64,000 bases of DNA. It comes from Nitrospirae bacterium GWB2_47_37. Lineage in GTDB: Bacteria > Nitrospirota > Thermodesulfovibrionia > Thermodesulfovibrionales > Dissulfurispiraceae. The notes beneath the pieces are model-generated. The model was not told the DNA's origin and ran no database searches. It worked only from the letters and a program-made list of their open reading frames with translations. The DNA lies in NCBI GenBank assembly GCA_001803635.1, contig MHDU01000074.1, positions 62,001-126,000 of the forward strand, read 5' to 3'. Below are positions 6,463-38,014 of this stretch, in pieces. Position 1 is the stretch's first letter. The number at the start of each line of letters is the position of its first letter. The translations under genes were made by a program, and so were the position numbers.

Positions 6463-7786
6463 AAATTTCATAAACGATACCGACCCGATAAAGGTTTACG
6501 GCAAGGTAAGCAGGGGCGTAGGTCTTGTCATTGAAGGATTGGGCCCCAGAGCCAATATAGGCGATATCTGCCGGATAGAGTCGAGCGGCGGGCATCGGGC
6601 GCATGACGCACAACACGCAACACGCAACGCGTTTGTGGAAGCCGAAGTAATAGGGTTTAAAGAAGATAAGATACTGTTGATGCCGCTCGGAGATATGATG
6701 GGCATCGGCCCCGGTTCCCGGATAACGGCGAGGGGAAGAAAGCGGTATATCAGGGTCGGTCCCGGTCTATTGGGCAGGGTGCTTGACGGTCTCGGCAATC
6801 CGATGGACGGAAGGGGCCATATTACCGGACAACTTTATCCGATATATAACGAGCCGATAAATCCGCTTCGCAGAAAGCGTATCTCGGAACCACTCGATCT
6901 CGGAATAAAGGCCATAAACACCATGCTTACCTGCGGCAAGGGACAGAGAATAGGCATAATGGCGGGCAGCGGCGTAGGCAAGAGCGTACTGCTCGGCATG
7001 ATGGCGAGGAACACCGCAGCGGATGTAAATGTCATAGCAATGATAGGTGAAAGAGGCAGGGAGGTAAGGGAGTTCATAGAAAAGGATTTAGGCGTCGAGG
7101 GGCTTAAAAGGTCCGTATTAGTGGTGGCTACATCGGACACCTCTCCGCTTATAAGGATACGCGGAGCATTCGTAGCTACGGCGATCGCCGAATATTTCAG
7201 ATCTCAGGGCAGGAATGTGCTTTTTATGATGGATTCCCTTACGAGGTTTGCGATGGCGCAAAGAGAAATAGGCCTTGCTGCAGGCGAGCCGCCCACGACA
7301 AAGGGATATCCGCCTTCGGTATTCAATCTTTTGCCTAAGCTCCTCGAAAGGGCGGGGACATGGGGCGGCAAGGGGACGATCACCGGATTATACACTGTAT
7401 TGGTCGAAGGCGACGACATGAACGAGCCTATAGCCGACGCGGCCCGCTCGATACTCGACGGGCATATAGTATTGTCGAGAGAACTTGCCAATCATAATCA
7501 ATATCCGGCGATAGATATACTTCAGAGCATAAGCAGGCTTATGAAGGATATTACGGATGCCCCGCACAAGACGCACGTTGAAAAGGCGCTTGACATAATG
7601 GCTATATACAAGCGGTACGAGGACGTCGTTACCATAGGAGCATATAAAGAGGGCACAAACCCTAAACTGGATAATGCGATAAAGATGATGGATAAGCTGC
7701 GATTGTTCCTGAAACAGGAAATAACGGAAAAAGTTACATTCAAAGAAGGGTTAAATGTGTTTTATAAATTATTCGGCACGGCATGA
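6428..7786 (+). CDS. fliI: Flagellum-specific ATPase FliI
   Basis: 452 residues. Walker A is GIMAGSGVGKSVLLG and Walker B lies near NVLFMMDSLTRFAMAQREI; GERGREVREFI and GSGKG-like rotary ATPase motifs follow the F1-beta pattern. It energises and orders type III export of flagellar subunits with FliH and FliJ. Residues about 55-68 (HRAHDAQHATRN core) look like a short insertion into the N-terminal beta barrel. They are encoded by a tract of CACGCAA repeats at 6590-6631 and are not expected in the family, but the frame is kept. Confidence 0.97.
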   Translation: MQSAQQLIAKCKNFINDTDPIKVYGKVSRGVGLVIEGLGPRANIGDICRIESSGGHRAHDAQHATRNAFVEAEVIGFKEDKILLMPLGDMMGIGPGSRITARGRKRYIRVGPGLLGRVLDGLGNPMDGRGHITGQLYPIYNEPINPLRRKRISEPLDLGIKAINTMLTCGKGQRIGIMAGSGVGKSVLLGMMARNTAADVNVIAMIGERGREVREFIEKDLGVEGLKRSVLVVATSDTSPLIRIRGAFVATAIAEYFRSQGRNVLFMMDSLTRFAMAQREIGLAAGEPPTTKGYPPSVFNLLPKLLERAGTWGGKGTITGLYTVLVEGDDMNEPIADAARSILDGHIVLSRELANHNQYPAIDILQSISRLMKDITDAPHKTHVEKALDIMAIYKRYEDVVTIGAYKEGTNPKLDNAIKMMDKLRLFLKQEITEKVTFKEGLNVFYKLFGTA

Positions 7787-24997: not shown

Positions 24998-25636
24998 ATG
25001 AGAAGAAGGCGCAGGGTATCACATGAAAGACCGAGCCATGAAAGATGGCTGATATCGTATGCCGATTTTATAACCCTCATGTTTACTTTTTTTGTGGCTC
25101 TCTACGCGTTATCTTCGACCGATACAAAAAAAATGGAAAAGTTTTCAGGATCGCTGCGTCAGGCTTTTAAGGTTATAGATGAGCCCATTTCGTTTCAGGA
25201 GGATAAGCACAAGGCCGTTATAGAGGATTTAAGAAAAGTTATTACGGACGTTTCAGGCGTGTCCGTAAAAACAGACCCGAGGGGAATAGTGCTGACATTC
25301 TCGGATACGGCTCTTTTCGCTTCGGGCGCAGCCGACATAAAACAGGAGGCATCCGGAGCCCTTGAAAAGCTTTCAAAGACGATTAACGGGACGCCGGGCA
25401 AAATAACTATAGAAGGACATACCGATAATATACCTATGTCCGGAGGCAAATATGCGTCCAACTGGGAGCTTTCCACTGCGCGGGCCGCGAGCGTCCTGAG
25501 TTTTTTCGTGGGGAGGGGCGTTGACCCGAACAGGTTTTCCATAGCCGGCTATGCCGAATACAGGCCGTTGACGAGCAACGAAACGGAAGAAGGAAGGGCA
25601 AAGAACAGAAGGGTCGAGATGATTATAAGCCAATGA
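24998..25636 (+). CDS. motB: Flagellar stator protein MotB, first set
   Basis: 212 residues. One membrane helix carries the essential ion-binding Asp in SYADFITLMFTFFVALYA. The plug and OmpA-like peptidoglycan-binding domain follow (ITIEGHTDNIPMSGGKYASNWELSTARAASVL, ending NRRVEMII). It anchors stator units to peptidoglycan. It is shorter than the second MotB and lacks a Pro-rich tail. Confidence 0.95.
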   Translation: MRRRRRVSHERPSHERWLISYADFITLMFTFFVALYALSSTDTKKMEKFSGSLRQAFKVIDEPISFQEDKHKAVIEDLRKVITDVSGVSVKTDPRGIVLTFSDTALFASGAADIKQEASGALEKLSKTINGTPGKITIEGHTDNIPMSGGKYASNWELSTARAASVLSFFVGRGVDPNRFSIAGYAEYRPLTSNETEEGRAKNRRVEMIISQ

Positions 25637-33274: not shown

Positions 33275-34255
33275 CTAATCTTGAGATGTTATCGGAGGGA
33301 TTTTCAGATCCTTGGACGGCTCGCTGATTTTTATTTCTTCTTCCTCTATCAATCTCTTAGCGCCGATAAAGCGCTTGAAATAGTAGGGGCTTTCGAGGCT
33401 GTCGATGGTTATTTTTTTAGATCTCGATGACGCGTGTATGAAAAGGTTGTTGCCTAAATATATGCCTACATGAGACGGGAAAGACGCGTATGTCCTGAAG
33501 AAGACGAGGTCTCCTATCGAAAGATCTTCCTTGTCGACAGGCTCTCCCACCCGGAACTGTTCCCTTGCGCTTCGCGGTATGGTTATACCTGTAATTCCGT
33601 ATACCTTTTGCACATACGCGGAGCAGTCCACTCCTATAGCGCCGTTGCCGCCGAACTTATAGGGGAGATGCAGCATTTTTTTTGCAAAGAGCATCAGCCG
33701 CTCCTTCACGCTCATCTTTGACAGGTCGTTGGAACTTGAAAGTTCTTTTACTTCCTCCAGACGCGCGGATGTTACGACCGGGTTGGCCTTTCTGTCATAC
33801 TGCACCTGAATCGACTTTATTATATCTTCCGGTTCAACGGGTTCCTCCATCTTTTCCGAAATGATAAGCGTTTGTCCGATTTTCAGGGAATTCTTCTTAA
33901 GCGCGTTCAGTTCCTTCAGTTCTTCTATGCTGAGATCGAACCGTTTTGCGATGCGGTATATGGTGTCTCCTTTTTTAACGGTGTATGTGTTTTCCGTACC
34001 TTTACTATGCGGTTTGCCCTTTGCGGAATTTTTACGGGCAACTTTCCTGTCGGCATTTTTTATCCGTATTTTTTGTCCGATCTTCAGTTTATTGGTTTTA
34101 AGGCCGTTTATCCGCTTTAATTCCGATTCGGAAATATCGAATTTTTTCGAGATTTTATATAGGGAATCGCCGTTTTTAACGGTATAGTTCGCGGCGGCAT
34201 ATACGGTCGAAGCCGAGAAAAGGAATAACGCTATGAATGCGAATATTTTTTTCAT
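33275..34255 (-). CDS. Secreted LysM-NlpC/P60 peptidoglycan hydrolase
   Basis: 326 residues from the ATG at 34255, chosen because GGAGGAGG lies 6 nt before it and a signal peptide (MKKIFAFIALFLFSASTVYA) follows. There are two LysM domains (about 22-65 and 88-131) and a C-terminal NlpC/P60 domain with catalytic Cys (GVDCSAYVQKVYG) and His (FPSHVGIYL). It cleaves peptide cross-links of peptidoglycan in the periplasm, probably for cell growth or separation. The 3' end of scpB reaches to within 30 nt upstream. Confidence 0.93.
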   Translation of the reverse strand: MKKIFAFIALFLFSASTVYAAANYTVKNGDSLYKISKKFDISESELKRINGLKTNKLKIGQKIRIKNADRKVARKNSAKGKPHSKGTENTYTVKKGDTIYRIAKRFDLSIEELKELNALKKNSLKIGQTLIISEKMEEPVEPEDIIKSIQVQYDRKANPVVTSARLEEVKELSSSNDLSKMSVKERLMLFAKKMLHLPYKFGGNGAIGVDCSAYVQKVYGITGITIPRSAREQFRVGEPVDKEDLSIGDLVFFRTYASFPSHVGIYLGNNLFIHASSRSKKITIDSLESPYYFKRFIGAKRLIEEEEIKISEPSKDLKIPPITSQD

Positions 34256-34283
34256 TAATTCCTCCTCCAGTCTAAATTCAAAA

Positions 34284-34835
34284 TTACGCCGCTTCATCTT
34301 TCAAAAAGTCGTTAATCGGCGGCAGGTCGCTTAAATTCTTAAGGCCGAAGTACTGCAAAAATTCCTTTGTAGTGCCGTAAAGAAACGGCCTTCCGGGCGT
34401 CTCTTTCTTTCCCACAATTTTAATGAGCCGCTTGTCGAGCAGGCTCTTTACTGCACCGTCGGAATTGACCCCTCTCAACTGGTCTATCTCGAGCTTGGTT
34501 ATCGGCTGCTTGTATGCCGTGATCGCCAATGTTTCGAGAGCCGGAGACGACAGTTTATTCGTCTGATTTATGTTTTTGAATTTTTTAACGAACAACGAAA
34601 AGTCCGGATTGGTGACCATCTGATACCCGTCCGCGATCTCCGCGATGATAATGCCGGAATTCCGCTCTTTATACTCCGATATCAACCCGGCCATCAGGCG
34701 TTTTATATCGGCCTCGTTTATTTCCGTTGTCTTTACGAGGGCGCTTAATGCGACAGGTTCGCCTGCCGCGAACAGGAGCGCCTCAACGGCCGCCTTCCGG
34801 AGATGCTTCTCTTGCGATGCCTCCATTTCTTCCAT
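34284..34835 (-). CDS. scpB: Segregation and condensation protein ScpB
   Basis: 183 residues with two winged-helix domains: KAAVEALLFAAGEPVALSALVKTTEI and SPALETLAITAYKQPITKLEIDQLRGVNSDGAVKSLLDKRLI, the classic ScpB signature. It forms SMC-ScpAB condensin. scpA is not adjacent here, which is less common. An in-frame ATG nine bases downstream is an alternative start. Confidence 0.94.
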   Translation of the reverse strand: MEEMEASQEKHLRKAAVEALLFAAGEPVALSALVKTTEINEADIKRLMAGLISEYKERNSGIIIAEIADGYQMVTNPDFSLFVKKFKNINQTNKLSSPALETLAITAYKQPITKLEIDQLRGVNSDGAVKSLLDKRLIKIVGKKETPGRPFLYGTTKEFLQYFGLKNLSDLPPINDFLKDEAA

Positions 34836-34843
34836 TGCGGAAG

Positions 34844-34873
34844 ATTATAACAAAAAACAGCTTGAAATTCCAA
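34844..34873 (-). promoter_or_regulatory. Sigma70-type promoter of the scpB operon
   Basis: On the minus strand TTGGAA-N18-TATAAT lies just upstream of scpB. The predicted start is within a few bases of the first ATG, so translation may begin at the second ATG (34826) or on a nearly leaderless transcript. Confidence 0.6.
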
Positions 34874-34920
34874 GAAAACGTCGGTTAGTATAAGAAAACA
34901 ATCGAGGTGGATAAACTAAA

Positions 34921-35691
34921 ATGAAAAAATTCTTAATAATCTTATGTCTTGCCGTTCTGTTTCTTGCGGCGAATGCGGCGCATGCCTTCAGCACGAGCGG
35001 CTGCGAAGGAGATTGCAAGAGGTGCCATTCTTTAAGCAATCAGGAAGCCGGCGCAATCCTGAAAAAAATAAAACTTTCTCATGCGAAGATACTCGATATT
35101 CAGTTGAGTCCGGTAAAAAGCCTCTGGGAAATATCATTGGACGACCGGGGTAAAAAGGGAGTCATTTACGTCGATTTTTCAAAAAAATATCTCGTTTCAG
35201 GCCATATAGTCGAGATAAGCTCAGGGGCAAGCAGGACAGCGGAAAGCATACAAAATATACCGATAGGGAAAACGGATTTTTCGAAGATATCGCTCGCAAC
35301 TCCATTTGTAATAGGAAGCGCCGATGCGCCTAAAAAGGTGGCAGTATTTTCCGACCCCGATTGACCGCACTGCAAGAAACTTCATCTGGAGATGAAGAAG
35401 GCGGTCGAAAAAAGAAAAGACATAGTTTTTTACGTCAAGCTTCTGCCTATTGTCGGAGTAAAACCGGATAAAATAGGAGATGCCGCCTGCGATAAGTACG
35501 CAAAAATGCGCGTTGAATTTAACGGCAGCGGTAAAAAAGAGTGCGATCAAAAAGAGGTGGAGAGCACTGTTGCCCTCGCCAAATCCCTCGGCATCAACGG
35601 CACTCCTACATTGATCATGCCGGACGGCAAGATATACTCCGGCAATATGCCCGCGGACAGGCTCATTAAATTTATAGATGGGAGGCAATGA
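34921..35691 (+). CDS. DsbC-like thiol-disulfide oxidoreductase, predicted selenoprotein (UGA at codon 148 read as Sec)
   Basis: 256 residues if the TGA at 35362-35364 is decoded. A signal peptide (about 1-22) is followed by GCEGDCKRCHSL with a CxxCH motif, then a dimerisation-type domain, then the thioredoxin fold (VAVFSDPD-U-PHCKKLHLEMKKAVE). The frame continues unbroken with the DsbC-like remainder (GINGTPTLIMPDGKIYSGN, cis-Pro loop). Replacing U by C would give the CPHC active site of Dsb proteins. A SECIS-like hairpin follows the TGA. A plain nonsense mutation is less likely, because the downstream frame and coupling to the next gene (ATGA) are intact. It acts in the periplasm on disulfides. 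Confidence 0.85.
35363..35406 (+). promoter_or_regulatory. SECIS-like hairpin directly after the UGA
   Basis: An outer 6-bp stem (GACCGC with GCGGTC) begins within the UGA itself, and a perfect 7-bp inner stem (CTTCATC with GATGAAG) closes the loop UGGA. The loop starts 22 nt after the UGA and has G at its second position, matching known bacterial SECIS spacing. Confidence 0.75.
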
Positions 35692-36554
35692 AAGCCTATC
35701 CCGACACGCTTTTAATTTTTTTGTCGGCTTCGGTATTCCTGATACTGCTTCTTGCGGTATTGGTATTCCTGCCCCGCCTTATCCGGAAGAAAGAGCCGGC
35801 AAAAGAAAGAACTATTGAAACGGATTCGGTTGTCGGCGCGTTTCACGCGCTCGGCACTGAAATACGGTCTTTAAAAGAACAACTCATCACAAGGGAGAGG
35901 CTTGCCGCCATCGGAGAGGTTTCGGCCGGCATAGCCCATGAATTCAGAAACCCGATGGGCGTGATCGCCGGATATGCAAAGCTGCTTTTAAAGAGTTTTG
36001 AAGATTCCGACGGCAGGAAAGAGAGCGCCCTCGGCATTCTTAAAGAGATAGAAGAAATGAACATTGTCATGGAAGAACTGCTTCAATTTTCAAATCCCGG
36101 CTCCCTTAAAAAGACGAACATAAACCTGACAAACACTATAAACGATATGCTCGAAGGCATGGGAGATGAAGCCGCCCGCAGTATAGATTTTTCCCGCAGT
36201 GATATTATTGAGATAAAGGCCGACGAAACCCTTTTGAAACAGGCATTGAAAAACCTTATCCGCAACGCCCTTGATGCCGGGGACCCTATATTGAAAAAAA
36301 TATGGATAAATATAGAGGGGGGCAGTTCTTCGGGTAAGGACGGCGTATTTATTTTTATTAGAGATAACGGTAAAGGCATAGCGGAAACCGATATCGATAA
36401 AATATTCATGCCGTTTTATACGACGAAGGAAAGAGGCGCAGGAATAGGCCTTGCGCTTGTTCAGAAGATAGCTATGGGGCACGGCGGGAACGTGAGCGTT
36501 GAAAGCAGGGAAGGCGAGGGCAGCACGTTCAGGCTGTTTTTGCCGAATGATTGA
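35688..36554 (+). CDS. Membrane-anchored sensor histidine kinase
   Basis: 288 residues. One N-terminal membrane helix (about 6-30) is followed by HisKA with AHEFRNPMGVIAGYAKLL and HATPase boxes (LKNLIRNALDAG, DNGKGIAETD, FYTTKERGAGIGLALVQK). There is no separate periplasmic sensor domain. The start overlaps the stop of the selenoprotein gene by four bases, so the two are translationally coupled. Its probable partner is the NtrC-type regulator after the 50-nt repeat at 36579. Confidence 0.9.
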   Translation: MKAYPDTLLIFLSASVFLILLLAVLVFLPRLIRKKEPAKERTIETDSVVGAFHALGTEIRSLKEQLITRERLAAIGEVSAGIAHEFRNPMGVIAGYAKLLLKSFEDSDGRKESALGILKEIEEMNIVMEELLQFSNPGSLKKTNINLTNTINDMLEGMGDEAARSIDFSRSDIIEIKADETLLKQALKNLIRNALDAGDPILKKIWINIEGGSSSGKDGVFIFIRDNGKGIAETDIDKIFMPFYTTKERGAGIGLALVQKIAMGHGGNVSVESREGEGSTFRLFLPND

Positions 36555-36578
36555 TAAATGGAGTGATGGAGTAGTAGA

Positions 36579-36628
36579 GGGGACTGTCCCAGAATTACGG
36601 GCATAGCCGTAGATTCGGGACTGTCCCC
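36579..36628. repeat. REP-like palindromic repeat, copy 2
   Basis: The same 50-nt inverted repeat as at 3288 and 42117, placed between the kinase and regulator genes of a two-component pair. Confidence 0.85.
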
Positions 36629-36641
36629 GTTCCCAAATGAT

Positions 36642-37994
36642 ATGCAGACGATTCTTATTGTAGAAGACAAGAAAAGCATGGCGGACATGCTGGCTAAAAC
36701 CTTTCAAGCCGAAGGGTTTGCCGTCAGGGCGGCCTATAGCGTCAAAGACGGCATCTCCTTGATTTCGTCCGGCCTGAGCGCGGTGATTAGCGATCTGAAG
36801 CTGCCCGACGGCAGCGGCATGGATATATTGAAGGCCGTAAAAGAAAGTTTTCCTTTTATCCCGGTGGTTATGATGACCGCTTATGGAAGCATCGAAACGG
36901 CGGTCAAAGCGGTAAAAGAGGGGGCTTATGATTTCATAACCAAGCCCTTCGACCCCGACCATCTTTTACTCATCATCAAAAGGGCGATAGCAGAGAGAAA
37001 CATCGCAAAGGAAAACCTCATAATGAAAAAAGAGTTCCAGAGGTTTTTATCGGCTCCTGAAATGGTGGGAATCAGCAGGGAATGGAACGAAGTGATGGAA
37101 AAAGTAAAAAAGGTAGCGTCCCTCAAAACAACGGTTTTAATCTTGGGCGAAAGCGGAACCGGAAAGGAACTCGTAGCGAGAGCTATTCATCACATGAGCC
37201 CGAGGTCAAAGGAACCGTTTGTCGCGGTTAATTGCGCGGCAATCCCAAAGGATTTAATAGAAAACGAGATATTCGGGCATGAAAAAGGCGCGTTCACCGG
37301 CGCGGCTGAACTAAAGCCCGGCAGGTTTGAGCTGGCGGACAGGGGCACAATATTCCTCGACGAAATAGGAGATATGGAGATGCCTTTGCAGACAAGGCTC
37401 TTAAGGGTATTACAGGAAAACGAGTTCGAGCGCGTCGGAGGCACAAAGACGATAAAGGTTGACGCGAGGGTGATCGCCGCAAGCAATAAAGACCTTGAAA
37501 AAGAGGTTTCCGAAGGCCGTTTCAGGGAAGACCTGTTTTACAGATTGAATGTATTCCCGATATTTATTCCGCCTCTCAGGGAAAGGCGCGAGGATATTAT
37601 ACCCCTTACAAGGCATTTTGTTTCTTTATTCGCAAAGGAGATGAATAAACCCGAAATTACTGTTTCTTCCGAAGCTGAAAATATGTTGTTAACCCGTGAA
37701 TGGAAAGGCAATGTGCGAGAGCTTAAAAACGTTATCGAAAGGGCGGTTATTTTGTGCGAAGGGCAGGCCCTGATGCCTGAACATTTTAGTTTTGGTGAAA
37801 ACTCATTCCACGAAAAAATCGCTTCCGACGCTCCTTTACATGTAATCGCGGAATCTGCGGCAAAGTCCGCGGAAAAAGCGCGAATAGCGGAGACGCTCAA
37901 AAAGACTTACGGCAATAAAAGCAGGGCTGCGGAGATTCTTAAGGTGAGTTATAAGACGCTTCTGAATAAGATAAAGGAATATCGGATTTCGTAA
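36642..37994 (+). CDS. Sigma54-dependent NtrC-family response regulator
   Basis: 450 residues. The receiver domain has its phospho-acceptor in VISDLKLPDGSG and Lys in ITKPFDPD. The AAA+ domain has GESGTGKELVARAIH, EKGAFTGAAELKPG and IFLDEIGDM. The C-terminal Fis HTH is YGNKSRAAEILKVSYKTLLNKI. The upstream kinase is the likely partner. The sigma54 promoter of the pilin cluster 2.4 kb away is a candidate target, as with PilR; this is inferred. Confidence 0.93.
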   Translation: MQTILIVEDKKSMADMLAKTFQAEGFAVRAAYSVKDGISLISSGLSAVISDLKLPDGSGMDILKAVKESFPFIPVVMMTAYGSIETAVKAVKEGAYDFITKPFDPDHLLLIIKRAIAERNIAKENLIMKKEFQRFLSAPEMVGISREWNEVMEKVKKVASLKTTVLILGESGTGKELVARAIHHMSPRSKEPFVAVNCAAIPKDLIENEIFGHEKGAFTGAAELKPGRFELADRGTIFLDEIGDMEMPLQTRLLRVLQENEFERVGGTKTIKVDARVIAASNKDLEKEVSEGRFREDLFYRLNVFPIFIPPLRERREDIIPLTRHFVSLFAKEMNKPEITVSSEAENMLLTREWKGNVRELKNVIERAVILCEGQALMPEHFSFGENSFHEKIASDAPLHVIAESAAKSAEKARIAETLKKTYGNKSRAAEILKVSYKTLLNKIKEYRIS

Positions 37995-38014
37995 ATATGC
38001 CTATATATGGAAAA

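Follow-up and report, generated by a model that had tools for sequence, protein, structure and literature searches.

Features of the locus

The window analysed here is a stretch of 64,000 nt from Nitrospirae bacterium GWB2_47_37 (assembly GCA_001803635.1, contig MHDU01000074.1, positions 62,001 to 126,000 of the forward strand), and all positions are numbered from its first nucleotide. The locus contains a gene for a DsbC-type protein with an internal TGA, followed by two regulatory genes:

34921..35691, + strand: DsbC-type gene, predicted selenoprotein (256 aa, Sec at residue 148)
34921..34989, + strand: predicted signal peptide, about MKKFLIILCLAVLFLAANAAHAF (boundary set by eye; helix at residues 3-17 in the structural model, low confidence at 22-26)
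35014..35028, + strand: CKRCH (CxxCH) motif, residues 32-36 (homologue alignment)
35044..35238, + strand: DsbC_N dimerisation-type domain PF10411, residues 42-106 (Pfam)
35332..35673, + strand: Thioredoxin_2 catalytic domain PF13098, residues 138-251, with U148-P-H-C151 (Pfam)
35362..35364, + strand: in-frame TGA read as selenocysteine (alignment and frame)
35380..35397, + strand: SECIS hairpin, 7-bp stem CTTCATC/GATGAAG, loop TGGA (conservation and folding)
35688..36554, + strand: histidine kinase with HisKA and HATPase_c and a single predicted membrane helix (4-nt overlap with the stop of the selenoprotein gene)
36642..37994, + strand: NtrC/AtoC-type sigma-54 response regulator (conserved neighbour)

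When TGA is read as a residue, the region 34921-35691 encodes 256 aa and codon 148 is its sole internal TGA. The surrounding sequence, FSDPD-U-PHCKKLH, places this codon at the first residue of a CPHC active site, and the frame ends in a TGA that shares nucleotides with the start codon (ATG, 35688) of the following gene. The frame, the Pfam matches and the alignment bear out the first-pass annotation, which had located a TGA at 35362-35364 in the position of the first redox Cys and had described a frame that resumes beyond it up to a stop overlapping the next gene. Standard gene callers would cut the protein short upstream of its active site. As a measure of chance, open frames of at least 100 codons past a TGA follow 6 of the 37 long frames in the window. 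Other in-frame TGA extensions in the window (at 7784, at 25634 and at three minus-strand sites) look like adjoining genes or antisense frames and were not retained as selenoproteins.

The protein belongs to the DsbC/DsbG type

Both domains scored above their Pfam cut-offs (DsbC_N, 31.7 bits versus 25; Thioredoxin_2, 57.2 bits versus 27), and among 51 homologues they were found in 49 and 51 proteins, respectively. Within the Thioredoxin_2 domain, C190 and C208 are invariant and the TP at 228-229 occupies the cis-Pro position; we take the spacing of C190, C208 and P229 to be that of the second disulfide and the cis-proline of E. coli DsbC. The solved structures closest by sequence were DsbC, DsbP and DsbG, and an AlphaFold2 single-chain model (mean pLDDT 89, pTM 0.78) retrieved DsbG, DsbP and DsbC at the top ranks of Foldseek. 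Since this single-chain model places the two domains differently and at another angle, its whole-chain TM-scores against DsbC and DsbG were low, at 0.37-0.42 when scaled by query length. Scores also fell below the NCBIfam equivalog cut-offs for DsbC (48.6 bits versus 215) and DsbG (42 bits versus 124), and the protein is therefore of the DsbC/DsbG type, not an E. coli-type orthologue. Sequence comparison thus makes the homology to this type clear, and the earlier label "DsbC-like" stands as a homology placement, supported by Pfam and the structures, and falls as evidence for isomerase activity. Ahead of DsbC_N, 47 of 52 homologues retain the CxxCH motif, which could be a haem-binding site or an extra pair of thiols.

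Predicted selenocysteine and cysteine alternate at the same codon

We searched 40 relatives for homologues and obtained matches in 38; the nearest public-genome records were MAGs of Nitrospirae/Thermodesulfovibrionales. Plasmid searches returned only Cys-containing DsbC proteins with under 35% identity, and viral contigs yielded two remote relatives. Alignment of the homologues, which had been suggested as a check together with the first description of the locus, placed either TGA (31) or Cys (21) at exactly codon 148 in the 52 distinct sequences obtained after readthrough. A UxxC motif was present in 30 of the 31 TGA homologues; in the remaining one (L072:869-1639) the resolving Cys is changed to Ser (UPFS), so that Sec would there have no partner thiol within the motif. 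Residues W69, E70, Y83, D145, P146, H155, P176, C190, C208 and P229 were invariant, and the rest of the active site was conserved in both TGA and Cys forms.

This alignment also bears on the possibility that the TGA does terminate translation, leaving a 147-aa DsbC_N fragment, and that the catalytic half is reinitiated separately, for example at ATG 35392, which opens a 99-aa frame. However, translation from 35392 would miss the UPHC active site that all homologues conserve, and the Cys homologues are single unbroken proteins. We give such a split arrangement practically no credence.

A maximum-likelihood tree contained 13 changes between Sec and Cys, at least five of which were forced by well-supported branches, indicating that the exchange is recurrent. 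Cys and TGA forms were found in tandem in two genomes (L042 and L071 in G035, L095 and L101 in G130). One Cys homologue (L047:1489-2268) still carries a perfect SECIS hairpin; the simplest reading is that it switched from Sec to Cys recently and that the hairpin is probably a fossil of this switch. From these comparisons, it appears that this uncultured Nitrospirota bacterium and many of its relatives use Sec, as predicted, at the position where other relatives use Cys. With exchange so frequent at a single syntenic locus, where one Cys gene even retains a SECIS hairpin, natural pairs are available that could serve to test the benefit of Sec to a periplasmic disulfide enzyme.

A uniform SECIS hairpin accompanies the TGA

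The inner hairpin begins 15 nt past the TGA, with its loop 22 nt past it, and the 51-nt element (35362-35412) folds with -17.3 kcal/mol (z = -4.8). The constraints described for bSECIS elements are a loop of 3-9 nt, a stem of 4-16 bp, a distance of 16-37 nt from the UGA, a G in the first two loop positions and an MFE of -7.5 or lower (PMC13188914). The hairpin, with the 4 nt of its TGGA loop and its 7 bp, lies within all of them, in agreement with the first-pass annotation. That annotation had described two nested stems, and they fared differently. Cells of the inner stem were paired in 99.5% of cases in the TGA forms versus 57.8% in the Cys forms; the outer stem GACCGC/GCGGTC occurs here, yet it was paired in 61% among 30 TGA homologues, and we discarded it as a conserved element.

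Every TGA form has, 15 nt past the TGA, the stem CTTCATC/GATGAAG or a copy of it that departs by a single variant pair or mismatch, and a G is present within the first two loop positions. Covariation was thin, as six of the seven stem pairs are invariant and only one compensatory change was present (CAC/GTG in L043). The choice of codons for identical residues appears to be the stronger evidence. The Leu codon CTT was used in 31/31 TGA forms versus 10/16 Cys forms (Fisher P = 7e-4), the His codon CAT in 29/31 versus 9/21 (P = 8e-5) and the Lys codon AAG at codon +11 in 31/31 versus 7/17 (P = 3e-6), these P values being nominal because related sequences are counted as independent. Codons for the same amino acids thus seem to be constrained in the TGA forms only. 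In a second batch of loci, outside those used to define the element, the hairpin was found in six of six new TGA forms and in none of 17 new Cys forms. An Rfam search of positions 34000-38000 gave no match, and a scan for the hairpin as a minus-strand terminator gave no excess over shuffled sequences.

Single internal stops in metagenome-assembled genomes frequently reflect errors or decay, and the TGA might accordingly represent a sequencing error for TGC or TGT, or a nonsense mutation in a decaying gene. In addition, a 7-bp stem arises at the hairpin site in 3.9% of synonymous draws made with local codon usage. Given this frequency and that of open frames beyond a TGA, neither feature is decisive alone, and it is conservation across relatives that decides. 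Against error or decay, 31 homologues spread over many genera have the TGA at this very codon, nearly all of them without any other stop, the hairpin is tied to the TGA, and the 108 codons downstream remain conserved. Since related species that were assembled independently show the TGA with the same hairpin, a one-base sequencing error is excluded, and we regard this whole explanation as having a negligible chance of being correct.

The genome encodes a complete selenocysteine machinery

The genome that contains the window (2.47 Mb, 81 contigs, 98% complete) was searched for the components needed to insert Sec, as had also been advised at the outset. All four were found above curated cut-offs: tRNA-Sec (71.2 bits), SelA (624.6 bits), SelB (391.2 bits) and SelD (323.3 bits). 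None of the three grounds for rejection named with the first description (no Sec machinery, a misread base at 35362, homologues lacking both Cys and Sec at this codon) applied. The selD gene itself (L017:1489-2415) has an in-frame TGA at L017:1531, in the context VRAAG-TGA-AAKMGP, followed by a hairpin, and is thus a predicted selenoprotein gene too, like known Sec-containing SelD. Scanning the same genome with the SECIS model recovered the DsbC-type element and one insignificant match (E 0.48); with so little else found, the scan is no listing of the whole selenoproteome.

The reading frame alone does not name the inserted residue, and UGA could in principle be recoded as Cys or Trp, or be passed by plain readthrough. 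Nevertheless, the genome holds complete Sec machinery, the hairpin is of the Sec type and fits the bSECIS constraints, and the other gene in which a TGA was seen, selD, belongs to the classical selenoproteins; recoding to anything other than Sec is very improbable.

Co-occurrence was analysed in 129 genomes of the order with a completeness of at least 90%. Homologues were present in 108 of them and SelA in 121, and since the trait is so common, the comparison provides no sharp test. Among the eight genomes without SelA, two had no homologue, four had Cys forms only and two (G087 and G130) had TGA forms (L097, L100, L101, L106 and L107). The hairpins of these forms are intact, and both genomes have a strong tRNA-Sec. 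In these two genomes SelA was not found and SelB was not found above the cut-off, a discordance that is most simply explained by missing contigs.

Genomic context and proposed function

The family to which the window belongs keeps one arrangement with both Sec and Cys forms: a divergent ScpB gene, then the DsbC-type gene, the histidine kinase and the sigma-54 regulator. Most members show the 4-nt overlap between the DsbC-type gene and the kinase gene. A functional link among the last three genes is plausible. Genes for a PilB-like ATPase and for pilin-like proteins lie further downstream.

Taking together the computational results on the Sec codon, the SECIS element, the Sec machinery, the fold family and the Sec/Cys exchange, we consider the gene very likely to code for an exported thiol-disulfide oxidoreductase of the DsbC/DsbG type, with Sec as its predicted nucleophilic residue (UPHC). 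Its export, catalytic chemistry, redox partner and substrates are what we infer from this assignment. SelA would make Sec-tRNA-Sec using selenophosphate from SelD, and SelB carrying Sec-tRNA-Sec would bind the hairpin just 3' of the TGA, which would then be decoded as Sec instead of stop. Catalysis in the periplasm would start with an attack of the U148 selenol on substrate disulfides; C151 would then resolve the resulting mixed selenylsulfide, leaving the substrate reduced or isomerised. A membrane reductase of the CcdA/DsbD type, as expected from the family, would restore the reduced state; the genome encodes a CcdA/DsbD_TM protein of 239 aa, the only such reductant found, and a protein of this type is probably the redox partner. 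Isomerase, oxidase and reductase are not distinguishable by sequence, and the activity is presumed to be that of an isomerase or reductase.

A different emphasis would be that the main task of the selenoprotein is to provide redox input to the kinase/sigma-54 regulator, or to reduce the CxxCH of apocytochromes during cytochrome c maturation, and not to act as a general isomerase. The gene order, conserved for Sec and Cys forms alike and mostly with the 4-nt overlap, speaks for such a role, as do the CxxCH motif of the protein itself, the presence of CcdA instead of full-length DsbD and the kinase at 35688..36554, in which a sensor domain was sought and none was recognised. On the other hand, paralogues and members of other families have no kinase neighbour, and DsbC_N and the two invariant extra Cys residues point to a general DsbC-type enzyme. 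We hold this specialised role to be the less likely one, though a serious contender. A further reading, in which the CxxCH binds a c-type haem and the operon acts as a seleno-haem sensor that passes the periplasmic redox state to the kinase and the sigma-54 regulator, seems improbable.

Comparison with known systems

The general DsbC/DsbG-type selenoenzyme that we favour would extend the bacterial selenoproteins by a well-supported branch of the DsbC type whose SECIS is unusually uniform, in an order that is mostly uncultured. A 2026 inventory lists 119 families of prokaryotic selenoproteins, among them DsbA-like, DsbG-like (NF041057) and thiol:disulfide interchange (PF13098, UxxC) proteins (PMC13188914). 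A DsbC-type selenoprotein is absent by name from this inventory, whose generic PF13098 UxxC entry was compared by description only, and a literature search did not find one by name. A Prx-like selenoprotein fused to a domain named DsbC (Pfam11412) is a different protein (PMC9402790).

The DsbG-like selenoprotein (COG1651; NF041057 Rcas_1661 family; PMC13188914 Table 1) shares with the present protein the UxxC motif and a DsbG/COG1651-type thioredoxin fold. However, our protein scored 12.4 bits against the NF041057 DsbG-like (seleno)lipoprotein model, whose cut-off is 190 bits, and is not a member of that family. The thiol:disulfide interchange selenoprotein (WP_011366075.1, PMC13188914 Table 1), compared by description only, likewise has PF13098 and UxxC; its family is called Trx-like 2, cd02953, in a marine study (PMC2398784). 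DsbA-like selenoproteins (PF01323, UxxC) are also similar in their UxxC and as periplasmic thiol oxidoreductases, but they are without DsbC_N, and PF01323 is just a weaker secondary match in the present protein. We take cd02953 to be the gamma domain of DsbD, not DsbC, and the PF13098 UxxC inventory entry may be a DsbD-gamma-type protein.

The protein resembles DsbC and DsbG (E. coli DsbC 1eej, DsbG 1v57; plasmid DsbP 4ml1) in its combination of DsbC_N and Thioredoxin_2, the position of the CxxC, the second Cys pair, the cis-Pro and, as predicted here, export. It differs from all three in that Sec replaces the first active-site Cys and a CxxCH segment lies N-terminal to DsbC_N.
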